From assembly GCA_023558315.1 (NCBI GenBank), contig JAMJVX010000010.1, positions 1 to 42,443 on the forward strand: 42,443 bases of DNA, written 5' to 3'. Positions 17,511 to 39,320 of the stretch are shown here, in pieces (the first letter of the stretch is position 1; each line of letters begins with the position of its first letter). The notes under the pieces are model-generated. The model had not been told where the DNA came from and ran no database searches. It worked only from the letters and a program-made list of their open reading frames with translations. Origin of the DNA: Flavobacteriaceae bacterium. Lineage in GTDB: Bacteria; Bacteroidota; Bacteroidia; Flavobacteriales; Flavobacteriaceae. A program made the translations under genes and the position numbers.

Positions 17511-19925
17511 TTAATACCCACAATCATTTGAAAGACTTTGATAATAATCACTATATAAAGTGCCTATTGTTTGCCCACTTGCAGTCTGAATACAAGTCAA
17601 ACTAAGATTATTAGTTACATCTAAATCGCTTAATAATGTGTTATTTGATACATCTAAAGCAGTCAATGAAGTGCCTTCCACATCTAAAAAAGTCAAGGAA
17701 GTGTTATCAGATATATTTAATTCAGTTAAATTATTATTCCTGTATAAGTATAACTTATTCAATTCTGTTAGGTTTGATAAATTCAAATAGGTCAATGAGC
17801 TATTATCGTTTAAAACTATCAAAGTTAATTCTGTATTAGTAGATACATCCAAATGAGTCAACGAATTATCGTAAAGGTATAAAGATTCTAAAGCAGTGTT
17901 TGTAGATAGTCCAATATGGGTCAATGAATTATCGTATAAGACTATGCTAGTCAAAGACGTATTTGGATTAAGTATCAGATTTGTCAACGAATTATTGTAC
18001 GTATTTAAAAATATCAATGCAGTGTTTGTAGATACGTTTAATTGTTTTATATCATTATTATATGCTTCTACAAAACTCAATGACGTGTTTGTAGTCAAAT
18101 CTAATTGCCCCAACGAATTATTATTTACTTGTAAACGAGTTAAAGCAGTCATGAATTCTACCCCCCCTAGATTTCTGAGATCGTTATTATGGTCAGATCC
18201 ATTATACTCAAAAAAAGTGATGGTTTCTAAGACGTCTTGACGGATACTGTTTACACTACTCACAGCATTTCCTTCGTACGTTTCATTACATTGATGATTA
18301 GTATTATTTACTCGCGTATGTCCGTTATTTATACAACTAATAATTGCGTTTCTAAAGTGTTCGTCTGGGATATTTATATAAGCAATATAGTTTACTGAGT
18401 CGCTGTAGGAAGTTCCCTTTTTGTTGGTAGCAAAGGCGCGAATGTCATACATTCCACCCGTCAAAGTAAATGTAAAATTATGTCCATCTGCATTAATATT
18501 TTGTGTTGTCGTTGCTATTCCTACATTACTAGAAATCGTAGGAGTGCTACCACTTTCACTCCACACAAATCCAAATGAGGTAACTGTTGCTCCTCCAAAA
18601 TTTGTTATCGTTCCACTTAATGTATTTATAGAAATACTGAATCGCACTGTGGGAGGAGTTGCTTCTATTGTCCTAAAACTTAAGGGTGTTCCATATACAG
18701 TTCCTGCGTTATTGGTTGCATAAGCTACTACGTAATAAAGGGTATTATCACTCAATCCTGTAAGGTTTTTTGAAAAACTCTCCCCAGCGTTTATAGTGCT
18801 TCCTACTTGTACGGTGGTTCCCTCTCCAGAAAGAGTTAGAGAGGAACTATTAGTGCTATAGACAAATCCATAACTTTGGACAGGGTTGTTTCCTGTAGTA
18901 TCTATACGTCCTTTTAATGTAGCGGTAGTATAAGCGACAGGATTTGCGCTCAAAGTGGTTAGTGTTGGGGGTGTATCGGGTTCGGTAGTAAGTGTGATTG
19001 TATATGTTTGAGATGTTCCGTTACTAGCTGTCACAACGATACTGTTGCTCCCTACACTTAGTACACTATTTTTAGTAAATGCGTTTGAGCCTATAGTGGC
19101 GGTGGCTTGGTCTGCCAAACTCAGTTCACTTATTTGTGCTTGTGTAGTTCCATATGGCAAGTTTGAAAAGACAATGTTGGTTCCTGAAATATTATTTTGT
19201 GTTTGGGTAAAATTTGTACCAGAGACTGCTAAGGTCATACTTTTAATAGTCGTCTCATCGTTTTTAGTTTTGATATTACATATAATGCTATACCCTATTC
19301 CTACACTGTTGGTAGCATAAGCAACATAATAGTATGTAGTATTTTTAGAAAGCCCTGTTGCATTACTTTGAAAACCTCCTGTATTTGATGCTTTCCCCAA
19401 GTTAGTTTTTGTGCTTAGTGTCGTTGTTAAATTGCCGCTAGTTGTACTCCAGATGTGTCCGTGTTCTGTGATACTTATATCATCTCCACCAAAATTGGTA
19501 ATATTCCCTGAAAGTGTTACACTCGTTAGAAAGGGAGTTCCATTTGCATGCAAAACTGTTGGAACAGCCAAGGGGCGCTTAAATGTAAAACGAACCGAAT
19601 AGATTTTCATGTCTCCATTTTCTGCAGTGATAACGATATCGTCACCCCCTGCCTGTAGCACTCTTCCTACGTTTGTATCCGCATCTGCTTTAGGAGAAAT
19701 TTCTAATGTTTTAATTGTCACAACAGTGGTATTGAATGGGAGACTTTCTGAGAAAGTAATTTCTTTTCCATTTATATTTCCTTGATAATCTTTGTCTGCC
19801 GTTACTACTAATTTGGTAATTGCATTTTCACTAGATTTAGGTTTTTCACATTGATACACACTTAGTGTAAATACGGCTATAAGTGTTATAAACGCTAAAT
19901 ATTTGTAGTTTTTTATGTGTCGCAT
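17511..19925 (-). CDS. LRR surface lipoprotein candidate 1 (beta-sandwich + LRR)
   Basis: 804 residues. An N-terminal hydrophobic segment ends at Cys26 (SVYQC), followed by CEKPKSSE, suggesting a lipoprotein. Then come alternating beta domains: a DUF5018/cadherin-like unit (about 33-113), a fibronectin-III-like unit (about 115-220), another pair (222-420) and one more Fn3-like unit (to about 512). An LRR N-cap follows (INIPDEHFRNAIISC, with a second Cys in HQCNETY), then eight 21-22-residue leucine-rich repeats (595-764) and a C-cap with two Cys, ending in DCGY. No type IX sorting domain. Paralogue of the gene at 36579-39320; probably a surface adhesion or recognition protein, but the ligand is unknown. 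Confidence 0.85.
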   Translation of the reverse strand: MRHIKNYKYLAFITLIAVFTLSVYQCEKPKSSENAITKLVVTADKDYQGNINGKEITFSESLPFNTTVVTIKTLEISPKADADTNVGRVLQAGGDDIVITAENGDMKIYSVRFTFKRPLAVPTVLHANGTPFLTSVTLSGNITNFGGDDISITEHGHIWSTTSGNLTTTLSTKTNLGKASNTGGFQSNATGLSKNTTYYYVAYATNSVGIGYSIICNIKTKNDETTIKSMTLAVSGTNFTQTQNNISGTNIVFSNLPYGTTQAQISELSLADQATATIGSNAFTKNSVLSVGSNSIVVTASNGTSQTYTITLTTEPDTPPTLTTLSANPVAYTTATLKGRIDTTGNNPVQSYGFVYSTNSSSLTLSGEGTTVQVGSTINAGESFSKNLTGLSDNTLYYVVAYATNNAGTVYGTPLSFRTIEATPPTVRFSISINTLSGTITNFGGATVTSFGFVWSESGSTPTISSNVGIATTTQNINADGHNFTFTLTGGMYDIRAFATNKKGTSYSDSVNYIAYINIPDEHFRNAIISCINNGHTRVNNTNHQCNETYEGNAVSSVNSIRQDVLETITFFEYNGSDHNNDLRNLGGVEFMTALTRLQVNNNSLGQLDLTTNTSLSFVEAYNNDIKQLNVSTNTALIFLNTYNNSLTNLILNPNTSLTSIVLYDNSLTHIGLSTNTALESLYLYDNSLTHLDVSTNTELTLIVLNDNSSLTYLNLSNLTELNKLYLYRNNNLTELNISDNTSLTFLDVEGTSLTALDVSNNTLLSDLDVTNNLSLTCIQTASGQTIGTLYSDYYQSLSNDCGY
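17634..18143 (-). repeat. LRR-coding tandem array, 8 units
   Basis: Six 63-bp and two 66-bp in-frame units encoding the pattern LxxLxxxxNSLTxLxxSxNTx. Two Asn positions per unit (about 9 and 19) and the following Thr are nearly fixed. The next stretch (NNLSLTCIQ) is a degenerate ninth unit leading into the C-cap. Confidence 0.85.
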
Positions 19926-22308: not shown

Positions 22309-24393
22309 ATGAAAAAAAAGCTGTTTGTTTTTAGCTTCCTTGTATTCTCATTCTGTATAATTATACTTTCCTGTTCTACCAGTAAAAACCGTTTCTTTAA
22401 TCGTAATTATCATAGATTAACAACTAAATACAATGTCCTATTCAATGGTGAAGAAGCGTTTGGTTTAGGATATGATGCGCTATTATCTACCCATCGCGAT
22501 GATTTTTTTGAATTGCTATCAATATATCCATATACTATTGAAGAAAACAGTAAAGGACTTCCTACTTCACAATTATTTAGTAGAGCAGAAACTAAAGCAA
22601 TAAAGGCAATCCAAAAGCATTCCATGAGAATTAAAGACGTGGAATATAATAGACTTATTGAAAGAGTCTATCTGCTTTTAATTAAAAGTAGGTTTTTTGA
22701 TGGACGATTTATTCTTGCAATAAATTCTACGAAAGAGTTTTTAAATAAATTTCCTAATTCTATATACCTTAATGAAGTATTGCTTTGGAGAGCAATTTTA
22801 TATATTCAATTAGAATATGAAGAATTAGCCATTCGGAGTTTAAAACAAAATGTATATAGATACTTAAAATCAGATCCTTTATATGGAGAAAATTTTGCTG
22901 TTATAGGTCAAGCACATATGAACTTAAAACAAATTGATTCTGCCTTATATTATATGAAAAAAGCAGCTGATTATAAGGAAATAAATCCTCTTTTAAAACC
23001 GAGGTACTTATTTATTACCGCTCAAATGTATGAAAGGCAAAACAAATTAGATTCTGCACTTTTATATTATAAAAAAATACACTCTTTATCTAGACGAAAG
23101 CAACAAAAATTTGGAATTAATTCTATTTTACAATCCCATTTAATTAATGCTAAACAGGGTGACACAATAAATTTTACAAATAAATTATTGCGTCTAACAA
23201 AAAGAGAACGCTATAAAAAAGACAATTATATTATCTATAAAACCTTAGGGGAATTTGCTTTAAATATTGAAAACAATCCAGAAAAAGCGATTGATTATTT
23301 TAATAAATCATTAAAAGAAACTTCAAATAATATTAAAAGCAAAAGTCAAAATTATCAATTATTATCTGAATACTATTTTAAAGAAAAAGATTTTCTTAGT
23401 GCGGGAATATACTTAGATAGTACAATTAGAAATACTTCTCCTACTAATAAAAATTATAGGGATTTGCAAAAAAAATATCAATCGTTAGAAACGATAGTTT
23501 TTTTAGAAAAAAAACTCAAAGATACCGATAGTATCTTAACTCTTATTTCCAAAACAAAGCCAGAACAAAAAAAATATTTTGAAAATTATATTGATACACA
23601 AAATGAAAAAGAGTTAAAAAAACTCACAGATTCTAAAGAAACACAATCTGAAAGTACTTTTTATTTTTACAATACATTATCAAAGACAAAAGGGCAGCAA
23701 CAGTTTCAAAGTATTTGGGGAAATAGACCCAATGTTGACGAATGGAGGTTAACTAGTAAAATTAATTCCATTTCCTCTTTTAAAAACACTACTTTAAACG
23801 CTTCCGAAACATCCTTTTTCAAAAAAACTCCTGAAAGTTATATGGCGTTGCTCCCTAAAGATTCTTTAGAAATAGATTCCATTAAAAAAGATAGAAATCA
23901 AAACCTTTTAAAATTAGGAGCCATGTATGCTACAAAATACTCCAATCAAACGCTTGCTACAAGTTATTTGGAAAAATTACTTGCCTCTAATCCCTCCGAA
24001 GAAGAAAAAGAACAAGGCTTGTTTTTCCTCTCAAAAACAACTAATCCAAAGAAAATAGTCCATTATAAAACTGCCTCAATTTTAGAAGATACTACAAAGG
24101 TAGACTCTACGAAATCTCCTTCCTTAAATTATAGGAGTCTCAAAACTCTATACGATTCTAAGCAATATGAAAAAGTTATTGAAGCAACGAATAATCTCAA
24201 ACCTAATAAAACTACAAACGCTAAAACAGCCTTATTAAGAGCAAATTCTTTAGGGAAAATAAATGGGTTAAAAGTATTAGAAAAAGAATATAGGGCAATT
24301 ATTAAAAATTATCCTTCAAGTATAGAGCGTCGCTATGTTGAAAAACAATTAAATTATATAGAAGAAATTAAAATAGATTCTTTAGGAATATAA
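22309..24393 (+). CDS. porW: PorW/SprE-like type IX secretion and gliding lipoprotein
   Basis: 694 residues. Lipoprotein signal with IILSC (Cys22), then the family N-terminus SKNRFFNRNYHRLTTKYNVLFN, which matches the PorW/SprE group of Bacteroidota. The body is helical and TPR-like (for example SALYYMKKAADYKE, ALLYYKKIHSLS, AIDYFNKSLKE), with a Lys-rich C-terminal half. PorW/SprE is an outer-membrane lipoprotein needed for type IX secretion and, in gliding species, motility. This copy seems somewhat shorter than gliding-species homologues as I remember them. No other T9SS gene lies in the window. The last bases, including the stop, form copy 1 of a 20-bp direct repeat. Confidence 0.78.
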   Translation: MKKKLFVFSFLVFSFCIIILSCSTSKNRFFNRNYHRLTTKYNVLFNGEEAFGLGYDALLSTHRDDFFELLSIYPYTIEENSKGLPTSQLFSRAETKAIKAIQKHSMRIKDVEYNRLIERVYLLLIKSRFFDGRFILAINSTKEFLNKFPNSIYLNEVLLWRAILYIQLEYEELAIRSLKQNVYRYLKSDPLYGENFAVIGQAHMNLKQIDSALYYMKKAADYKEINPLLKPRYLFITAQMYERQNKLDSALLYYKKIHSLSRRKQQKFGINSILQSHLINAKQGDTINFTNKLLRLTKRERYKKDNYIIYKTLGEFALNIENNPEKAIDYFNKSLKETSNNIKSKSQNYQLLSEYYFKEKDFLSAGIYLDSTIRNTSPTNKNYRDLQKKYQSLETIVFLEKKLKDTDSILTLISKTKPEQKKYFENYIDTQNEKELKKLTDSKETQSESTFYFYNTLSKTKGQQQFQSIWGNRPNVDEWRLTSKINSISSFKNTTLNASETSFFKKTPESYMALLPKDSLEIDSIKKDRNQNLLKLGAMYATKYSNQTLATSYLEKLLASNPSEEEKEQGLFFLSKTTNPKKIVHYKTASILEDTTKVDSTKSPSLNYRSLKTLYDSKQYEKVIEATNNLKPNKTTNAKTALLRANSLGKINGLKVLEKEYRAIIKNYPSSIERRYVEKQLNYIEEIKIDSLGI

Positions 24394-24400
24394 GAAAGAG
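24381..24400. repeat. 20-bp direct repeat, copy 1 (porW 3' end)
   Basis: TTTAGGAATATAAGAAAGAG, identical to 24897-24916. It includes the last codons and the TAA stop of the porW-like gene. Flanking bases differ on both sides, so the repeat is exactly 20 bp. Confidence 0.9.
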
Positions 24401-24435
24401 GGTATTGCGCTTTTAATTAAAATAACTATTTATTA

Positions 24436-24443
24436 TATATTTG
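24436..24443 (+). promoter_or_regulatory. -7 box for InlB-repeat lipoprotein
   Basis: TATATTTG, 15 bases before ATG 24459. The alternative TTG start at 24441 lies within the box and is therefore rejected. Confidence 0.55.
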
Positions 24444-24458
24444 CTAAATAATATCTAT

Positions 24459-24806
24459 ATGAAAAATCTATATATTAAAACTTTATATTTTATAACATTC
24501 ATTCTTATATACAAATGTACAAACATAGAAGAGGACAAAGAATCTATTTCTCCTACTAAATACACTTTAACAGTTACTTCTGGAGAAGGTGGGTCAGTAA
24601 CCCCAGATGCTAGCGGAACCTATAATAAAGGGGCTACAATAACAATAACAGCCACTCCAAATAATGGATATGTCTTTGACAAATGGGTGGGTAGTGATAA
24701 TGATAATTCTAACTGTAATTTCTCAGGACCTTTAGGTTGTCGAACTGGCATAACAATGAACTCTAATAGATATGTTGACGTTTTTTTTAAAAGAAAAGTA
24801 GAATAA
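24459..24806 (+). CDS. Small InlB B-repeat-like lipoprotein
   Basis: 115 residues. A hydrophobic N-terminus ends in LIYKC (Cys20), followed by the acidic run NIEEDKE, compatible with a surface-exported lipoprotein, although Lys before Cys is unusual. The rest is one divergent InlB B-repeat domain: YTLTVTSGEGGSVTPDASG, KGATITITATPNNGYVFDKWVG and a final VDVFFKR strand. Two Cys (in NCNFSGPLGC) could form a disulfide loop. Such domains usually occur in long adhesins; here it stands alone, so it may be a remnant or a minimal surface protein. Its own promoter is present, and the gene sits between two copies of a 20-bp direct repeat. Confidence 0.8.
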   Translation: MKNLYIKTLYFITFILIYKCTNIEEDKESISPTKYTLTVTSGEGGSVTPDASGTYNKGATITITATPNNGYVFDKWVGSDNDNSNCNFSGPLGCRTGITMNSNRYVDVFFKRKVE

Positions 24807-24896
24807 AATAATATCCCAATATCAACTTTATTCATTATTATAACTATTTAAACTACTGTAAAGAAACATATTAGTTTAAACTTTAACAAAAAAATA

Positions 24897-24916
24897 TTTA
24901 GGAATATAAGAAAGAG
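24897..24916. repeat. 20-bp direct repeat, copy 2 (tRNA-Thr 3' edge)
   Basis: Identical to 24381-24400. The last two bases (24915-24916) are the discriminator and final acceptor base of tRNA-Thr(GGT), so the repeat ends at the tRNA 3' terminus. The stretch 24807-24914 holds no gene that I can see. Confidence 0.9.
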
Positions 24917-24986
24917 CCAATGACGAGATTTGAACTCGTGACCTCTTCCTTACCAAGGAAACGCTCTACCCCTGAGCTACATCGGC
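24915..24986 (-). tRNA. tRNA-Thr (anticodon GGT)
   Basis: The minus strand folds into a cloverleaf: acceptor GCCGATG pairs with CATTGGC (one G-T), D arm GCTC/GAGC, anticodon loop TTGGTAA on a TTTCC/GGAAG stem, and T arm CACGAG/CTCGTC with TTCAAAT. The GGT anticodon reads ACC and ACT. CCA is not encoded. Last in the array. Confidence 0.95.
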
Positions 24987-24996
24987 AAAAAAAAAG

Positions 24997-25069
24997 AGCG
25001 GAAGACCGGGCTCGAACCGGCGACATTCAGCTTGGAAGGCTGATGCTCTACCAACTGAGCTACTTCCGC
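24997..25069 (-). tRNA. tRNA-Gly (anticodon TCC)
   Basis: Cloverleaf on the minus strand: acceptor GCGGAAG/CTTCCGC perfectly paired, D arm GCTC/GAGC, anticodon loop CTTCCAA on CAGC/GCTG, and T arm GCCGG/CCGGT with TTCGAGC. Reads GGA and GGG. Ten bases separate it from tRNA-Thr(GGT). Confidence 0.95.
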
Positions 25070-25094
25070 AATTTTTAGGATTTCAATAAAAATG

Positions 25095-25176
25095 TGGGGA
25101 GAGTAGGATTCGAACCTACGAAGGCGAAGCCGGCAGATTTACAGTCTGATCTCGTTGACCACTTGAGTATCTCCCC
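25095..25176 (-). tRNA. tRNA-Tyr (anticodon GTA)
   Basis: 82-base type II tRNA with a long variable arm (around GCCGGCTTCGCC). Acceptor GGGGAGA/TCTCCCC, anticodon loop CTGTAAA on a CAGA/TCTG stem, T loop TTCGAAT. Reads TAC and TAT. Confidence 0.95.
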
Positions 25177-25189
25177 AAATAAATTTAAG

Positions 25190-25263
25190 AGCCGATGGAG
25201 GGACTCGAACCCACGACCTGCTGATTACAAATCAGCTGCTCTAGCCAGCTGAGCTACATCGGC
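25190..25263 (-). tRNA. tRNA-Thr (anticodon TGT)
   Basis: First tRNA of the array. Acceptor GCCGATG/CATCGGC, anticodon loop TTTGTAA on CTGA/TCAG, T loop TTCGAGT. Reads ACA and ACG. Its acceptor arm is nearly the same as that of tRNA-Thr(GGT). Confidence 0.95.
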
Positions 25264-25322: not shown

Positions 25323-25355
25323 CAAATTTAGAGATTATTTTTAAATAAAAAACAA
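25323..25355 (-). promoter_or_regulatory. Promoter of the tRNA array
   Basis: Minus strand: TAAATTTG (-7 box) at 25330-25323, about 60 bases before tRNA-Thr(TGT), with TTG at 25355-25353 after a 22-base spacer. One transcript would cover all four tRNAs. Confidence 0.5.
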
Positions 25356-25399
25356 AAAAATAATAAAATATAGTAAAGTGTAACATGATTAAATTTAAT

Positions 25400-25490: not shown

Positions 25491-25498
25491 TAGATTTG
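25491..25498 (+). promoter_or_regulatory. -7 box for lipoprotein-receptor unit
   Basis: TAGATTTG, 21 bases before ATG 25520. No -33 TTG at the right distance, which would suit an activator-dependent promoter. The TTG start candidate at 25496 lies inside the box. Confidence 0.55.
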
Positions 25499-25519
25499 CA
25501 ATCTAAAATTGAATTAGAA

Positions 25520-26764
25520 ATGCAAAATTATTTTAATTATTTATTCTTTATCATAACAACAATTATCATTATTGCTTCATGTAGTGTGCCTAGTGATAAT
25601 TTTGACCTAGTAAACTCTACAACCTATGAATACTCATTAACAGGAGAAATTACGGAAGATAAAACCTTAAGTGAATCAACTACTTGGAATCTTAACGGTA
25701 GAGTTTTTGTCAAAAATGGGGCAACTTTAACAATTCCTGCAGGAACTATTATTAAAGCAAATCAAGGAACAGGAAGCAATGCGGCAGTTTTAATAATCTC
25801 AAGAGGAGCAAAGATTATCGCAGAGGGAACCGCTGATAAACCCATTATTTTCACTACTCAATACGATAGTATAACTGCTGGAAATTTTATAGGAACTAAC
25901 CTCAATGAAAACTCTAGGGGGCTTTGGGGAGGGCTTATAATTTTGGGAAAAGCCCCTATCCATGGTGATAAACCAACAGCAGGAGTGACAGAGAGAAATA
26001 TAGAAGGACTTCCCGCAAATAGCTTAAATGGTATGTATGGTGGTTCGATTGAAAACGATAATTCTGGTATCCTTAAATATGTTTCCGTCCGACATGGGGG
26101 AGTGGCCATAGGAGAAGGCAACGAAATTAATGGAATTACCTTTGGGGGTGTAGGAAACGGCACTTTGGTTGAAAACATAGAAGTCGTTGGAAATGTAGAC
26201 GATGGTGTAGAATTTTTTGGAGGAACAGTAAATGCTACAAATGTTTTAGTATGGGCGCAAGGGGACGATGCTATAGATATTGATGAGGCCTATAAAGGAA
26301 CGTTAAAAAATGTTTTTGTGAAATTAGGAATTGCTTCAGACCATGCACTTGAAGTAGACGGCCCAAAAAGTGGACCTAATGTCAATGCTCAATATACACT
26401 TTCTGGCGCAACATTTGTTGGATATAATGCGCCTGCGGGTAGAGCATCCATTGCTGACTTTAGGGATGGTGCTGTAGGTATAAATAGTGGAATTTTAGTT
26501 AAAGGATTTAAAGCAGAATCAAATGTAGAATTAGATGCCTCAGCAGATGTTACTCGTTTCACAAAGGGGGATTTATTATTTAAGAATTGGAAAGTCAAAT
26601 TACCTGAAGGAAGTACTGACATCAATGGAATATTTGATAATAAGGTGTCGGGAGACACATTTAATAATCCCGTTTTTGCAACTGCTATAACAAGTGAATC
26701 TATTACTGTTGGTGCGGATGAATCGGTATTTGGCTGGACCATGTATAAAAAGAAAGGGAACTAA
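25520..26764 (+). CDS. Beta-helix-like lipoprotein paired with TonB-dependent receptor
   Basis: 414 residues from ATG 25520. Lipoprotein signal with IIIIASC (Cys21). The N-terminal part reads TGEITEDKTLSESTTWNLNGRVFVKNGATLTIPAGTIIKA (in short runs), followed by Gly-rich strands with LWGGLIILGKAPI and GTVNATNVLVWAQGDDAIDID, suggesting a right-handed beta-helix. It belongs to a Bacteroidota family that is often found beside a TonB-dependent receptor and is sometimes misnamed multidrug transporter. Probably a surface partner of the receptor at 26813, 48 bases downstream with no promoter of its own. Ligand unknown; phosphate-related uptake is a guess from context. Confidence 0.75.
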   Translation: MQNYFNYLFFIITTIIIIASCSVPSDNFDLVNSTTYEYSLTGEITEDKTLSESTTWNLNGRVFVKNGATLTIPAGTIIKANQGTGSNAAVLIISRGAKIIAEGTADKPIIFTTQYDSITAGNFIGTNLNENSRGLWGGLIILGKAPIHGDKPTAGVTERNIEGLPANSLNGMYGGSIENDNSGILKYVSVRHGGVAIGEGNEINGITFGGVGNGTLVENIEVVGNVDDGVEFFGGTVNATNVLVWAQGDDAIDIDEAYKGTLKNVFVKLGIASDHALEVDGPKSGPNVNAQYTLSGATFVGYNAPAGRASIADFRDGAVGINSGILVKGFKAESNVELDASADVTRFTKGDLLFKNWKVKLPEGSTDINGIFDNKVSGDTFNNPVFATAITSESITVGADESVFGWTMYKKKGN

Positions 26765-26812
26765 TTTATAAAATCTTAAATCATCAAAAAATTCAATAAC
26801 AAATAATTTATT

Positions 26813-29665
26813 ATGAAAAAATATTTACTACTTATTTTACTTTTGAGTGCATTTCTAGCACAATCACAAGTAGGAACCATCACTGGAAAACTTACAGATA
26901 ATGTGTTTCAAGACCCCATTCCTTTTGCCAATATAATAGTAAAGGATACGGATACTGGAATTTCTACAGATTTTGATGGGAATTACCTATTAGAATTAGC
27001 TCCCGGTAATTATACTCTAGTTTATTCTTATCTGGGTTATGAAACTCAAGAAATTTCGAATATCGTTGTAGAACAATCAAAAACAGTTACTTTAGATATC
27101 ATCTTAGAAGAATTAGCGCAAGGGCTAGAAGAAGTAATTATAACAACTACAGCAAAAAGAAATACAGAAACATCGGTATTAGCGATGCAAAAAAATTCCT
27201 CAAGTCTATTAGATGGGCTTTCTTCTCAAACAATAAAAAGAGCTGGAGCAAGTAATATAGCTGCTGCTGTAAAAAGAATTCCAGGGGTTTCTGTACAAAA
27301 TGGCAAATATGTATTTGTTAGGGGATTGGGAGATAGATATACTAAATCTATTTTAAATGGTATGGACATTCCAGGATTAGACCCAGATAGAAATGCATTA
27401 CCTATGGATGTTTTTCCTACTAGTATATTAGAAAATATTGCGGTGATTAAATCTTCTACTGCCGATTTACCTGCAGATTTTACAGGAGGAATTGTAGATA
27501 TTATTACCAAAGAATTTCCTTCTGAAGAAGAATTTAATTTATCATTTAGTACGTCATATAATCCTACGATGCACTTTAATAATAATTATTATAATTTTAA
27601 AGGAGGAAACACAGATGTGTTAGGTTTTGATGATGGTACAAGGAGTATTCCAACTTATGACAGTAATGCTGATAATAGTCAGTTTGAATCAATAACTAGG
27701 AAATTTACACCTCATATGGCAGCGACTCCGACTATGAGTAATATGGATTTTGGGCTAAATTTTTCCTATGGGAATCAAAAAGACATAAACGAAGATAGTT
27801 CTAAAAAAATTGGATATTTTGTCTCTGGATATTATAAAAATACATCGACACTAAACGAAAATGCACAAAATAATCAATACATTATAAAAGAACCTGCAAA
27901 CAAATCAATTTTTGGATTGCGATTAGCCGATGGTCAACAAGGGACTACGGGTTCTAATAATGTGGTGGCAGAAACTATGGGGGGAATTTCCTTTAAAACA
28001 ATTCAATCAAAATATAAACTTAATGTCTTGTATATTAAAAATGGGCAATCTACTGCTGGTGAATTCATTAGAGAGGATGGAGATGGTGACCAAGGGGCAA
28101 AATTTAAGAAATTTAATTTAGAATATACCGAAAGAAATATTGCCAGTGGATTATTATCTGGAACACATACAAACGATGATGCCTCTCTAAAAGTAGAATG
28201 GAAATTTGCACCTACTTTAGCGCAAGTTTATGACAAAGACGTTAGAAACACACAATATAGAATTGAGGAAAACGAGAACACAGGAGAAGTATATTACAAT
28301 TTAGAAGAAAATGGAAGGCCTACAAGAATTTGGAGAGAATTAGATGAAACAAATTATGTTGGGAAAATAGATGTTACAAAAAAAACAACTCTTTTTGAAA
28401 AAGAAGCGAAAATTAAATTTGGAACATACTATGCTGATAAAGTTAGAACATTTAATATTTACAGATATTTTGTGCAATTTAATTATGCTGTAGATACAAA
28501 AGGAGATGCAAACCTTATTTTAGCTAGTCAAAATATTTTAAGCCCAAATAAAGCCAATGGAAATTATATCCTATTTAACAGAAATGATGTCGTAGAATTA
28601 GGCAGGTCATATGTTTCTAAACAAAATAATTTAGCAGGTTATGTCTCAGTAGAATTAAAGCCTATTGAAAATTTAAAAACGATTATTGGTATTCGTTATG
28701 AAGATTTTAAAACATATTATAAGGGGGTAGATGCTGCTGGAAGAGATGTTAATGGCAACCTACAAGAAGGCAATAAATTATACCGTCCTGAATTATTAGA
28801 ATATCAGAGCATTATAGATGTAAATGATTTTTTTCCTTCTTTAAATCTTATTTATTCGCTTAATGAAAATACAAATCTTAGAGCTTCTTATTCTAGGACA
28901 ACCGCACGCCCATCATTTAAAGAGGCATCAATAGCACAAATTTATGATCCCCTCTCAAATATTACTTTTATAGGAAATTCTCAATTAAGACCAACCTATA
29001 TTAACAATTTAGATATGCGATACGAAGTTTTTGGAGAAAACAATGAATTAATTGCTTTTAGTGGTTTTTACAAAACATTTAAAGACCCTATTGAGTTAGC
29101 TACTTTTGAAACAGATAGCGATCAATTTCAACCAAGAAATTTAGGGAACGCAACAGTATATGGAATAGAAGCAGAATATAGAAAAAGAACCCCTTGGATT
29201 GACAATCTATTTTTTAAGGCAAATGTTTCCTATATTATTTCTCAACAAAAAATGGGACCTGTAGAATATAATTTAAGAAAAGGAGTGGAGAAAGAAGGGC
29301 AAACAATATCAGATATAAGACCTTTACAAGGACAATCTCCCTATCTAATTAACGGAGGCTTAGAGTACAACGATTTTGAAAAAGGATTAGAGACAGGATT
29401 GTTTTATAATGTGCAAGGAAAAACATTAGAGGTAGTTGGTTTAGGAGAGTCTCCAGATGTATATACACAACCTTTTCACAATTTAAGTTTTTCATTTAGA
29501 AAAAAACTTGGAAAAGAAAACAAAACCTCAATTTCTCTTAATATCTCTAACATTCTAGACGATGTCAGGGAAAGTCTATTTGAATCATATAACTCTACCC
29601 ATCAAATCTTTAGATATAGAAATGTAGGGCGTTCCTTTTCAGTAGGATATAACGTGTCTTTTTAG
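26813..29665 (+). CDS. TonB-dependent outer-membrane receptor with regulatory-like N-domain
   Basis: 950 residues. Signal peptide cleaved near SAFLAQSQ. A carboxypeptidase-regulatory-like beta-sandwich (about 22-105; GTITGKLTD, FANIIVKDTDTGISTDFDGN) precedes the plug (about 125-235; RIPGVSVQNGKYVFVRGLGDRY, TADLPADFTGGIVDI) and a 22-strand barrel ending in SVGYNVSF, the usual aromatic C-terminus. Takes up a ligand too large for porins using TonB energy. It lacks a SusD partner, so it is not a typical polysaccharide locus; the lipoprotein upstream takes that place. The downstream PiT gene hints at phosphate compounds. Confidence 0.93.
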   Translation: MKKYLLLILLLSAFLAQSQVGTITGKLTDNVFQDPIPFANIIVKDTDTGISTDFDGNYLLELAPGNYTLVYSYLGYETQEISNIVVEQSKTVTLDIILEELAQGLEEVIITTTAKRNTETSVLAMQKNSSSLLDGLSSQTIKRAGASNIAAAVKRIPGVSVQNGKYVFVRGLGDRYTKSILNGMDIPGLDPDRNALPMDVFPTSILENIAVIKSSTADLPADFTGGIVDIITKEFPSEEEFNLSFSTSYNPTMHFNNNYYNFKGGNTDVLGFDDGTRSIPTYDSNADNSQFESITRKFTPHMAATPTMSNMDFGLNFSYGNQKDINEDSSKKIGYFVSGYYKNTSTLNENAQNNQYIIKEPANKSIFGLRLADGQQGTTGSNNVVAETMGGISFKTIQSKYKLNVLYIKNGQSTAGEFIREDGDGDQGAKFKKFNLEYTERNIASGLLSGTHTNDDASLKVEWKFAPTLAQVYDKDVRNTQYRIEENENTGEVYYNLEENGRPTRIWRELDETNYVGKIDVTKKTTLFEKEAKIKFGTYYADKVRTFNIYRYFVQFNYAVDTKGDANLILASQNILSPNKANGNYILFNRNDVVELGRSYVSKQNNLAGYVSVELKPIENLKTIIGIRYEDFKTYYKGVDAAGRDVNGNLQEGNKLYRPELLEYQSIIDVNDFFPSLNLIYSLNENTNLRASYSRTTARPSFKEASIAQIYDPLSNITFIGNSQLRPTYINNLDMRYEVFGENNELIAFSGFYKTFKDPIELATFETDSDQFQPRNLGNATVYGIEAEYRKRTPWIDNLFFKANVSYIISQQKMGPVEYNLRKGVEKEGQTISDIRPLQGQSPYLINGGLEYNDFEKGLETGLFYNVQGKTLEVVGLGESPDVYTQPFHNLSFSFRKKLGKENKTSISLNISNILDDVRESLFESYNSTHQIFRYRNVGRSFSVGYNVSF

Positions 29666-29674
29666 TATTTAACG

Positions 29675-29682
29675 TATTTTTG
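29675..29682 (+). promoter_or_regulatory. -7 box for PiT gene
   Basis: TATTTTTG in the 27-base gap after the receptor gene, 10 bases before ATG 29693. It suggests that the transporter can be expressed apart from the receptor unit, with a very short leader. Confidence 0.45.
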
Positions 29683-29692
29683 TTTTTTTAAA

Positions 29693-31921
29693 ATGGAAAA
29701 TATTTATCTATATATTGTCATTATTTTATGTTTATTAGCAATTGTAGATCTTGTAATTGGAGTAAGTAATGATGCCGTAAATTTTCTAAATTCTGCTATT
29801 GGCTCTAAAGCAATTTCCTTTAAAGTTTTAATGATACTTGCAAGTATTGGGATTATCCTCGGTGCATTATCCTCAGGTGGAATGATGGAAGTAGCGCGAA
29901 AAGGGATATTTAATCCTAGCGCTTTTTTCTTTGATGATATTATCCTTATCTTCTTAGCAGTAATGCTAACAGACATTATTTTATTAGATTTTTTTAATAC
30001 TCTTGGATTTCCAACTTCTACTACGGTATCTATAGTCTTTGAACTATTAGGGGCTGCAGTAATGATGGCGGTTCTAAAAATTATTAATTCAGAAGCAAGT
30101 TTCGCTACTTTAGAAATGTATATTAATACCGCAAAAGCTACCCAAATTATTTTGGGAATTGTTCTTTCCGTATTCATCGCATTTTCTGTAGGGTATTTTG
30201 TGCAATGGATATCTAGACTTATAATTAGTTTTAATCTAAAAAATAAATCCAATTTAACTAATACTATTTTTGGTACAATTTCGCTTGTTACACTTTTTTA
30301 TTTTATTGTTATAAAAGGATTAAAATATCTAGATATTCCTTTTTTAAAATCCTATATGAATAATGCCAATTTTATTGAAGTTATAGGTATATTATTTATT
30401 GTATTCTTTTTGTTGTGTTTCGTTTTTACTCGTATACTAAAATGGAATATTTATAAAATTATCATAGGTGTAGGTACATTTGCTTTGGCATTGGCATTTG
30501 CTGGTAACGATTTAGTGAATTTTATAGGAGTACCCGTAGCGGCCTTTCAATCATTTAAAATCTGGATAAATAGTGGGGTTTCTCCAGAATTATTAAATAT
30601 GCAAACTTTGGAATCTAAAGTCTCCTCTCCTACTCTATTTCTATTTATTTCAGGGATTATTATGATAATAACGCTTTGGATATCATCTAAAGCAAAAAAA
30701 GTCATCAAGACTTCCATAGATTTATCTAGTCAAAATGATATAGAAGAACGATTTAAACCCAATATTTTTTCAAGAGTAATTGTATCTTTTTTTGCTAGTA
30801 TAAATACTCTTATTAATAAGATTATGCCAATAAAAATAAGAATTTTTATTAAAAAGCAATTCAAGAATAACATAGGGAATAAAGAGTCTAAAGACTCGCC
30901 TTCTTTTGATATGTTAAGAGCGTCAGTAAATTTAGTGATTGCTGCTTTATTAATTACAATTGCAACTTCTTTAAAACTCCCTTTATCTACAACCTATGTT
31001 ACTTTTATGGTTGCAATGGGAACTTCCTTAGCAGATAGAGCATGGAATAGAGATACGGCTGTATATAGAGTTTCAGGCGTGACAAATGTAGTAGTTGGAT
31101 GGTTTTTTACTGCAATTAGTGCTTTTATTATTGCAGGTATTTATTTATTAATATTAAAAAAATTAGGAATTGCTGGAATTATCCTTGCACTTGTATTTAC
31201 CATCTATATTATTTTACGAAATCATCTAAGACATAAAAGAGAATTAAAGAAAACATTAGAGAATTTTTCTTTGGTTAAGCTTCAAAGCAAATCACTTCAA
31301 GGAATTATAAAAGGGAGTTCTTCAAACGCTTTAAATTTTTCAGTGAGGATAAATGAAATATATCTTAATTTGATAAAAGGGGTATCGCTACATAAAAAGA
31401 AAAGGCTCAAAGATTATTTTAAACAAATCAAAAAATTAGAATTTGAGATTTCAGAGTTACAACAAAATGTATTTCCTCTCATAAAAAATACAGAAAAATA
31501 TTCTCTAGAAATAAATAAATTTTATATCGCCTTATATACAGGGTTTGAAAAAATGTTGCAAAAAACAGATTTTATTTTAAAAGAATGTTTTGATCATGTA
31601 AATAATAATTACATGAAACTCAGATTTATTCAAATCAAAAAATTAGAAATTCTTTTTGAAAAAAACCAACTTCTATTTGAGCAAGAAAAAGCATTTTATG
31701 AGAATACGAATTTAAAAAACATAAATGTACTTGAAAAGGAAGTACAAAATGTAATTAATTTTATTGAGGAATTATTAAGCAAAGAAATTAACACCATCAA
31801 AAAAGACAATAAAACCTCCAAAAACACAAAGCTTTATTTCAAAATACTAATTAATTTTCAAGAGATAGTTAATTTAAAAAGAGAAATAATCAAAGAATTT
31901 AAATCAATACAAAAACTCTAA
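29693..31921 (+). CDS. PiT-family inorganic phosphate transporter with PhoU-like C-terminal domain
   Basis: 742 residues. About 10-12 membrane helices. The duplicated PiT signature is present: GVSNDAVNFLNSAIGSKA near residue 23 and AGNDLVNFIGVPVAAF near 265, plus GFPTSTTVS and the matching KLPLSTTYVT. After the last helix (about residue 515) comes a soluble, all-helical tail of about 220 residues, Lys- and Glu-rich, resembling DUF47/PhoU regulators; in many bacteria this is a separate gene beside pit. Imports phosphate with a cation. Bacteroidota PiT proteins of this long type are common. It follows the receptor cluster and precedes a MarC-family gene by 19 bases. Confidence 0.9.
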   Translation: MENIYLYIVIILCLLAIVDLVIGVSNDAVNFLNSAIGSKAISFKVLMILASIGIILGALSSGGMMEVARKGIFNPSAFFFDDIILIFLAVMLTDIILLDFFNTLGFPTSTTVSIVFELLGAAVMMAVLKIINSEASFATLEMYINTAKATQIILGIVLSVFIAFSVGYFVQWISRLIISFNLKNKSNLTNTIFGTISLVTLFYFIVIKGLKYLDIPFLKSYMNNANFIEVIGILFIVFFLLCFVFTRILKWNIYKIIIGVGTFALALAFAGNDLVNFIGVPVAAFQSFKIWINSGVSPELLNMQTLESKVSSPTLFLFISGIIMIITLWISSKAKKVIKTSIDLSSQNDIEERFKPNIFSRVIVSFFASINTLINKIMPIKIRIFIKKQFKNNIGNKESKDSPSFDMLRASVNLVIAALLITIATSLKLPLSTTYVTFMVAMGTSLADRAWNRDTAVYRVSGVTNVVVGWFFTAISAFIIAGIYLLILKKLGIAGIILALVFTIYIILRNHLRHKRELKKTLENFSLVKLQSKSLQGIIKGSSSNALNFSVRINEIYLNLIKGVSLHKKKRLKDYFKQIKKLEFEISELQQNVFPLIKNTEKYSLEINKFYIALYTGFEKMLQKTDFILKECFDHVNNNYMKLRFIQIKKLEILFEKNQLLFEQEKAFYENTNLKNINVLEKEVQNVINFIEELLSKEINTIKKDNKTSKNTKLYFKILINFQEIVNLKREIIKEFKSIQKL

Positions 31922-36578: not shown

Positions 36579-39320
36579 TTAATAACCGCAATTTCCAGAT
36601 AATGTCTGATTCAAATCTTTAGTAACATTTTCAATGCTTTGTCCACTTGCTGTTTGAATACACGTCAGCGAAGAATTCCTATCTACCCATAAGTAAGTTA
36701 ATGACGTATTATTACTTACATCCAAACTCGTTAAGGAATTAGAAAATACCCACAATCGATTCAACGCTGTGTGAATACCTACATCCAAACTAGTCAAAGA
36801 ATTAGTAGCAACAATTAAATTTTCTAAAGCCGTATTAGTACTTAAATCCAAATAGGTAAAAGAATTGTTTTGCATACTTAAATAATCCAACTCAGTATTA
36901 GTACTTAAATCTATACTATTTAAAGGATTTGTACTTACAAATAAAGTTCTCAATTTAGTATTACTACTTATATTTATACTAGTTAAAGAGTTTGAATTTA
37001 AATATAACTTAGACAATCTTGTAAGACTACTCACATCTATACTGCTCAAAGAATTTGAAGTAGCTACTAAGCTAAAAAGCTGAGTATTATTTGATACATT
37101 CAAATTACCTAAAGGATTAAAACTTGAACCTAAATTTGTTAACCTAGTATTATTTGATATATCTAAACTAGTCAAAGAATTATTAATAATATCTAAGTTT
37201 GCCAATACTGTAAGGTTGCCTACATCCAAATTTTCCAATTTATTATTATATAAATTTAAATTTGTTAATAAGGTAAGATTACTTACCTCCAAATTAGTCA
37301 AGGAGTTATTACTCGCCCTTAATATGACCAACGTTGTATTGTTTTCTATCTGCAAACTGTTTAAGTTGTTATAATCTAAAGCTAACCAGTTTAAAGACTT
37401 CATATAACTTACTCCCGTGGCGTCATTAATACGAATACTAGTATCATTATGATTAGGAATCCCATTATTGTAATTAAATTTAGTAATTGATTCAAGGACA
37501 TCTTTACTAATTAAACTTCCATCTGCTGAAATATTTCCTTCATAGTTTTCAGTACATGCATATTTATAATCGCCAGCTACTCTTGTATGTCCATTGTTGA
37601 TACAACTAATGATAGCATTTCTAAAAATATCGTCTGGAATATTTATATAAGATCCCGAAAGACTTGTAGATAAGCTTATTGTATTTCCATATGTAATTCC
37701 AAATGCGTTGGCAGCATATACTTTTATATAATACGTAGAGGCACTACTTGCTGTAAACGCTCCTGTAAAATTCCCTATACTATTTTTAGTTCCTAGAGAA
37801 ATTGTAGTTACACCATTTCCACTTACTACTAAATCCTCTCCACTGATAGTAGAAGCATATACAAAACCATGCTGGCTTACTTGGGTGCTTCCAGTCCCTA
37901 TATCACTAAGATTACCTTCTAAAGTAAAGGTCATTCCCGAAACGCTAGCATTAATTAGATTTACACTTGGAGGAGTCGCATCTAGTGTGGTAAACCCTGC
38001 TTTTAATCCATAACTTGTCCCACCTGAATTAGAGGCATAAGAAACATAATAGTAAATAGTGTTGTCACTTAATCCTGTTAGATTTGTTGTGAAATCTCCG
38101 AATCCAGTATTAGTACCTACTTGTACATTTGTTCCGCTTTCCTCAAGCGTCAGAGTCGCTTCATAATTTGTACTATATATAAAACCATGATTAGTTATGG
38201 ATGCTTCACCTATCGTAATCACTTTTGCATTTAAAGTTGCTGTAGTATAACTAACATTTGTTGCTGCAATAGTAGCCACTTGTGGTCGCATAGCGGGTTC
38301 ATTAATAAGTGATATTGTATATATCTGTGCGCTCTTGTCACTTGCTTCCACAGTTACATTATTTGTTCCAACACTCAATAAACTGTTCTCTCCAAAAGTA
38401 TTTGCACCTATAGTTGCTTTCGCTTGATTAGAGAGTGAAATAGCTGATACCCTCGCTTGTGTTGTCCCAAAAGGCAATCCGGTAAATATAATAGTAGTTC
38501 CCGAAATAGTTCCATCAGCAACGCTTCGCGTTTGGGTAAAAGGACTACCCCCAGATATACTCACTTCAATGCTTAAACTCAAAATATTGGCTTCATTATT
38601 TAGGGTTGTGAAATTTATTTGATTACCATATGCCGTACCATTTGCAGTAGTTATATAAGGGCGCACGAAATAGGTCGTAGAAGTATTTAAATCAGATAGA
38701 GTACTTGTATATTCTCCTGTTGGATTTTTGCTAGTTTTGTTCGATGAAGAATTTAAACTAGTACTTAATACATTACTTGCTCCTAATACTAACTCATCCC
38801 CTTGAGCAGTATCACTATATATATGTCCATATTGTACAATTGTTCCAGTGTCTATATTCCCTATTTTTGAAGTAATACTTACAGAAATATTTGCTCCACT
38901 TTGCGAATTATTAATACTTACAGCTGTTTGTGCTCCTCCAGAAAGTGTTTGAAAGATATCAGTTTGTTGTTGTGCGGTTATAGTGACAGAATAGGTTTGT
39001 GTACTACTATTCTCGGCAGTAACAGTAATAGAATTAGTACTACCCACGACGAGATTATCTCCTACTTTTTTACTGGCGTTTGCTTTTTCAGATAAAGTAA
39101 AGGCTTTAATACTTACTTGTGTAATTCCAAAAGGTACTTTATTTGAAAACGTAATATTAGTACTGTTAATCACTCCTGTATATTCTGTGCTTCCTGAAGC
39201 AACTGTAAACGCAGTAATGGATCTTCCAGAAAGTTTTTCTTCTTCAGGATTACATCGCAATACACTAATAAACATCCCTACTATTATACTAAGTGCTATA
39301 AAATATTTTATTATTTTCAT
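36579..39320 (-). CDS. LRR surface lipoprotein candidate 2 (paralogue of 17511-19925)
   Basis: 913 residues with the same plan as candidate 1. The signal ends ISVLRC (Cys23), followed by NPEEEK. Then DUF5018-like and Fn3-like beta domains alternate (about 30-560), a shared LRR N-cap (INIPDDIFRNAIISC, with second Cys in KYACTENYEG), eleven 21-residue LRRs (643-873) and a C-cap with SLTCIQTASGQSIEN and final NCGY. N-cap and C-cap are nearly the same in both proteins, while the LRR count differs (11 against 8). No type IX sorting domain. It follows the CstB-like gene by 43 bases with no box of its own. Confidence 0.85.
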   Translation of the reverse strand: MKIIKYFIALSIIVGMFISVLRCNPEEEKLSGRSITAFTVASGSTEYTGVINSTNITFSNKVPFGITQVSIKAFTLSEKANASKKVGDNLVVGSTNSITVTAENSSTQTYSVTITAQQQTDIFQTLSGGAQTAVSINNSQSGANISVSITSKIGNIDTGTIVQYGHIYSDTAQGDELVLGASNVLSTSLNSSSNKTSKNPTGEYTSTLSDLNTSTTYFVRPYITTANGTAYGNQINFTTLNNEANILSLSIEVSISGGSPFTQTRSVADGTISGTTIIFTGLPFGTTQARVSAISLSNQAKATIGANTFGENSLLSVGTNNVTVEASDKSAQIYTISLINEPAMRPQVATIAATNVSYTTATLNAKVITIGEASITNHGFIYSTNYEATLTLEESGTNVQVGTNTGFGDFTTNLTGLSDNTIYYYVSYASNSGGTSYGLKAGFTTLDATPPSVNLINASVSGMTFTLEGNLSDIGTGSTQVSQHGFVYASTISGEDLVVSGNGVTTISLGTKNSIGNFTGAFTASSASTYYIKVYAANAFGITYGNTISLSTSLSGSYINIPDDIFRNAIISCINNGHTRVAGDYKYACTENYEGNISADGSLISKDVLESITKFNYNNGIPNHNDTSIRINDATGVSYMKSLNWLALDYNNLNSLQIENNTTLVILRASNNSLTNLEVSNLTLLTNLNLYNNKLENLDVGNLTVLANLDIINNSLTSLDISNNTRLTNLGSSFNPLGNLNVSNNTQLFSLVATSNSLSSIDVSSLTRLSKLYLNSNSLTSINISSNTKLRTLFVSTNPLNSIDLSTNTELDYLSMQNNSFTYLDLSTNTALENLIVATNSLTSLDVGIHTALNRLWVFSNSLTSLDVSNNTSLTYLWVDRNSSLTCIQTASGQSIENVTKDLNQTLSGNCGY
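36702..37394 (-). repeat. LRR-coding tandem array, 11 units of 63 bp
   Basis: Eleven uninterrupted in-frame 21-codon units with pattern LxxLxxxxNSLTSLDxSxNTx. All are exactly 63 bp, unlike the array of the paralogue, where two units have an extra codon. Confidence 0.85.

Follow-up and report, generated by a model that had tools for sequence, protein, structure and literature searches.

A unique 20-bp direct repeat between a shortened porW gene and a tRNA array in a Flavobacteriaceae genome: a probable rearrangement junction

The window, which is the whole 42,443-nt stretch of Flavobacteriaceae DNA analysed here, carries a gene of the type IX secretion system that converges on an array of four tRNA genes, with a small putative lipoprotein gene lying between them. 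The features of this locus are the following.

22309..24393, + strand: porW/sprE, TPR lipoprotein of type IX secretion with a shortened C-terminus, 694 aa
24381..24400, + strand: copy 1 of the 20-bp direct repeat TTTAGGAATATAAGAAAGAG, giving the last porW codons and the stop
24412..24443, + strand: probable Bacteroidota-type promoter with a weak -33 and the -7 element TATATTTG, pattern match only
24459..24806, + strand: small putative lipoprotein gene, 115 aa, with one divergent InlB B-repeat domain (PF18998)
24897..24916, + strand: copy 2 of TTTAGGAATATAAGAAAGAG; on the - strand, the 3' trailer of tRNA-Thr(GGT)
24914..24986, - strand: tRNA-Thr(GGT), intact, last gene of the array
24996..25263, - strand: tRNA-Gly(TCC), tRNA-Tyr(GTA) and tRNA-Thr(TGT), the rest of the array
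25323..25356, - strand: promoter-like motif of the array, TTTG-N22-TAAATTTG, 59 nt upstream of tRNA-Thr(TGT), pattern match

Among exact direct repeats of the window, TTTAGGAATATAAGAAAGAG is the longest. Its copies lie at gene 3' ends in the same orientation, 516 bp apart, with a spacer of 496 bp between them. Copy 1 spans the final PorW codons (...D-S-L-G-I-stop, stop at 24391-24393) and 7 nt more, and copy 2 is mostly trailer, sharing with tRNA-Thr(GGT) just the last 2-3 nt of the tRNA gene. An earlier note on this DNA had reported a perfect 20-bp direct repeat bracketing one small gene; the identity is exact, both coordinates are right and the spacer has a single ORF of 115 codons. Exact 20-mer pairs are expected 0.007 times in the whole window and 0.0002 times within 600 bp. 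With up to 3 mismatches allowed, shuffles of the window gave a mean of 0.01 matches, and two matches in none of 100 shuffles. The check for further copies that the note had proposed returned no exact copy besides these two in the draft genome of 1.56 Mb, so the 20-mer is unique to this site and no common genomic motif; matches at 3 mismatches number two genome-wide, as in a reversed-pattern control.

The sole ORF of the spacer begins at the ATG at 24459 and codes for one PF18998 InlB_B-repeat domain. A Bacteroidota -7-like element, detected by pattern match at 24436, lies in front of it. The segment was said to hold one promoter and one surface-protein gene and no recombinase, which agrees with the promoter-like motif and the putative lipoprotein ORF found there and with the lack of any recombinase in the 496 bp. 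The N-terminal part of the putative lipoprotein is shared with two larger paralogues encoded on contigs C17 and C53, and the draft genome has no second copy of the 496-bp segment. A defence gene identity was rejected for the ORF, which gives no PADLOC match. A phage origin of the segment was likewise discarded: IMG/VR holds no exact match to the 20-mer, viral contigs gave only two matches of 19 residues each, and phage records show no relatives of the lipoprotein. In another genome (L169, G122:C6), two large lipoprotein-like proteins of about 1100-1180 aa with InlB-type repeats are encoded 0.7-10.5 kb downstream of tRNA-Thr(GGT) of the same array and on the array's strand. The window itself has two large lipoprotein-like proteins with LRR-like repeats, at 17511-19925 and 36579-39320, which share a near-identical segment (IPDEHFRNAIISCINNGHTRV and IPDDIFRNAIISCINNGHTRV).

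The porW product has a lipobox-like start and weak TPR matches, and its 33-37% identity over almost the full length to genes in the porW-bactofilin context assigns it to PorW/SprE. It is 694 aa long, against about 820-880 aa in most relatives. Local alignments to the relatives stop at window PorW residues 668-693, mostly 681-693 (one more locus is truncated by the end of its contig), and past this point the proteins of the relatives run on for 103-133 aa. Their conserved C-terminal region, for example NWKVVFPF...VVVHGF...NFVILSSNYK, is absent from the window protein in the alignment, and no other place in the draft genome was found to encode it. Homology to other PorW proteins breaks off at copy 1 or a few codons ahead of it, within a resolution of a few to about 25 codons because the last PorW residues are poorly conserved. 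The gene is cut at the junction, as a rearrangement would predict, and its new end was probably made in that event. Tail loss alone needs no rearrangement, since other short PorW genes (L025, L031, L032, L128) keep their adjoining bactofilin gene. In F. johnsoniae, SprE residues 759-870 are poorly ordered and their deletion has no effect on T9SS secretion (PMC10994853), while the PorN-binding C-terminal D6 domain of P. gingivalis is not present in flavobacterial SprE (PMC8754138). The F. johnsoniae sprE delta-cterm deletion removes the same tail of about 110 residues that window PorW lacks, but it was engineered in a complete T9SS, whereas the window truncation is natural and coupled to a rearrangement. 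As secretion there does not suffer from loss of that tail, the window protein probably retains its function.

Gene order in relatives is porW, then bactofilin, then a small AtpI-like gene. Among 80 porW loci of GTDB genomes, bactofilin directly follows porW in all 79 with readable downstream DNA, 78 of which also have the PorW C-terminal domain, and a tblastn match to bactofilin follows porW in 30 of 31 other loci. None of the loci scanned has a tRNA array beside porW. The 80 loci, retrieved by an alignment scan, are all more distant and none carries the array downstream of porW; a single-sequence scan of GTDB contigs for an empty site or congener found nothing, and a genus search for congeners returned only the genome of the window itself. 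Judged by PorW, marine Flavobacteriaceae MAGs and Candidatus Arcticimaribacter are among the closest named relatives. Contig C37 of the window genome encodes bactofilin, behind an EamA-type transporter gene. The notion that porW originally ran straight into the tRNA array finds no support in these comparisons: porW of the relatives is longer and continues into bactofilin, never into tRNAs, and the array belongs upstream of tuf. With porW and the array apart in relatives, their junction was possible only after a rearrangement in this lineage.

The Thr-Tyr-Gly-Thr array has a conserved position of its own, between xerC-hpf and tuf in relatives, with array and tuf adjacent in many members of the family. 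In the window genome, tuf-trnW-nusG is found on contig C62, behind rlmH-rdgB and without the array, and rpsU-xerC on contig C28 (L183, G000:C28, 3422-4602), without hpf or tRNAs after xerC. Genes that ancestrally flanked the two sides, namely bactofilin (C37), tuf (C62) and xerC (C28), are hence apart in the same genome, as expected of a rearrangement. Beyond the array, at the place that hpf and xerC occupy in relatives, the window (25496-31921) encodes a protein that looks secreted, a TonB-dependent receptor and a PiT-like transporter. The promoter-like motif of the array would permit it to move as a self-contained unit. The trailer of tRNA-Thr(GGT) starts with TTTCTTATAT, which resembles ordinary trailers such as TTTTTTATAT of genome G288; 9 of the first 10 nucleotides match, a short and post hoc resemblance that does not extend to the remainder of the trailer. 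We rejected a conserved trailer element, as the 20-mer is not kept among relatives and only its first T-rich nucleotides resemble some of their trailers. Nothing comparable to the copy on the porW side is seen in other porW genes.

Conserved linkages broken on both sides indicate that porW and the tRNA array became neighbours within this lineage. We favour, with moderate confidence, the interpretation that the site is a lineage-specific chromosomal rearrangement junction, at which a shortened porW was joined to the relocated tRNA array with the one-domain InlB-repeat lipoprotein gene between them. porW would have lost its dispensable C-terminal tail together with its bactofilin neighbour, and the self-promoted array of four tRNAs would have left the xerC-hpf/tuf interval to land convergent to it. 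Copy 1 could have been gained during joining, with the tRNA-Thr trailer serving as template (by template switching or end repair) for a short copy that would supply porW with new last codons and a stop; such an origin of the 20-mer in the rearrangement is the most likely one. The lipoprotein gene may have been captured in the event or may have already resided at the site. Capture by classical non-homologous end joining was rejected because no Ku match is found in the draft genome, which makes template switching or alternative end repair likelier. Illegitimate rearrangement junctions with short templated duplications likewise combine a short perfect duplication with broken ancestral linkages, and have no dedicated recombinase or ends, but 20 nt is long for pure microhomology. 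The literature on tRNA integration sites and template switching yielded no directly matching case.

The interval between tRNA-Thr(GGT) and tuf is empty in many Flavobacteriaceae and filled in small-genome marine relatives. In five of them (G160, G162, G020, G349 and G351; loci L170, L172, L173, L174 and L175) about 2.5-7 kb of differing genes separate the two, and a membrane glycosyltransferase-like gene recurs among the fillers. In L173 (G020:C20), a degraded 39-nt copy of tRNA-Thr(GGT), from anticodon to T-arm, is found between genes about 2.4 kb downstream of the tRNA gene itself (85% identity, E 3.6e-7); it is possibly the remnant of an old tRNA-targeted insertion.

Such variability, and the hint from the 39-nt piece of an older tRNA-linked insertion at this spot, fit a different order of events, in which a rearrangement first joined the shortened porW to the array via one 20-mer and a 496-bp non-autonomous lipoprotein cassette was inserted later, duplicating 20 bp as a target-site duplication or through att-like sites and an enzyme acting in trans. 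A perfect, locus-unique direct repeat that exactly brackets one promoter-gene unit supports it, and a 20-nt perfect duplication around 496 bp is the expected trace of an insertion too. We nevertheless judge this course of events unlikely. The segment has no recombinase and no terminal inverted repeats (one end matches the reverse complement of the opposite end at 9 of 20 positions), the genome offers neither a second segment nor a further 20-mer, viral contigs lack the 20-mer and the inserts read in relatives carry no such flanking repeat. Only two tyrosine recombinases were found in the draft genome, of 316 and 307 aa, in a search that covered this recombinase family; they have the length and context of housekeeping Xer proteins, one lying beside rpsU as expected for xerC. 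The earlier note is supported in that the repeat marks a real junction event and is unique to this site; the likeness to attL/attR sites that it drew is weak as an analogy. Integrative elements at tRNA 3' ends do share a direct repeat with one copy abutting the tRNA 3' end and a small cargo, but their repeat holds the 3' part of the tRNA and restores the gene on insertion, whereas the 20-mer includes just 2-3 nt of it, the segment measures 0.5 kb and has no other copies, and no integrase of the tyrosine type was seen in it or in trans apart from the Xer-like pair. Target-site duplications of IS or MITE elements also flank a segment with a direct repeat. At 20 bp the repeat is longer than is usual for them, and here, in contrast to such elements, the segment is single-copy, lacks terminal inverted repeats and carries a host-type lipoprotein gene. 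A bolder proposal would have very small non-autonomous cassettes land repeatedly at the 3' side of tRNA-Thr(GGT) in streamlined marine Flavobacteriaceae; the 496-bp cassette with its 20-bp flanks would be a minimal member of this kind, moved by an Xer-type enzyme of the host or by an unknown one. We hold this to be very improbable.

Other explanations do without any insertion. Unrelated pieces could have been joined by the assembler through a short shared word, as the draft genome consists of 83 contigs and no relative has the joined genes side by side. We consider such an artefact improbable: a wrong join of this kind would leave a single copy and not two copies 516 bp apart, the contamination estimate is 0.01, and bactofilin, tuf and xerC all stand in new contexts elsewhere in the genome, which a real rearrangement predicts. 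The location of both copies at gene 3' ends in the same orientation might also suggest a functional repeat, that is a regulator site, terminator or RNA element common to both segment ends. The probability of this is slight, since the repeat coincides with a coding end in copy 1 and with a tRNA trailer in copy 2, has only two copies genome-wide, does not fold more stably than shuffles and is not conserved as a trailer in relatives, and Rfam matches are restricted to tRNAs. A structured RNA at the site was accordingly dropped, as Rfam and folding against shuffles revealed nothing apart from the four tRNAs. The AT-rich composition of the region favours chance identity of the two copies; given the expectation within 600 bp and the position of one copy where PorW homology ends and of the other at the tRNA 3' end, coincidence is scarcely credible.

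The site looks like an ordinary genome scar and not a mobile cassette, and the 20-mer repeat is interpreted as a by-product. This small-genome marine flavobacterium has broken linkages that are family-wide, porW-bactofilin on one side and xerC-hpf-tRNAs-tuf on the other, and the tRNA-Thr(GGT)-tuf interval stands out as a variable spot in its clade. It also tolerates a PorW without the C-terminal tail, which fits the finding that F. johnsoniae does not need this tail.
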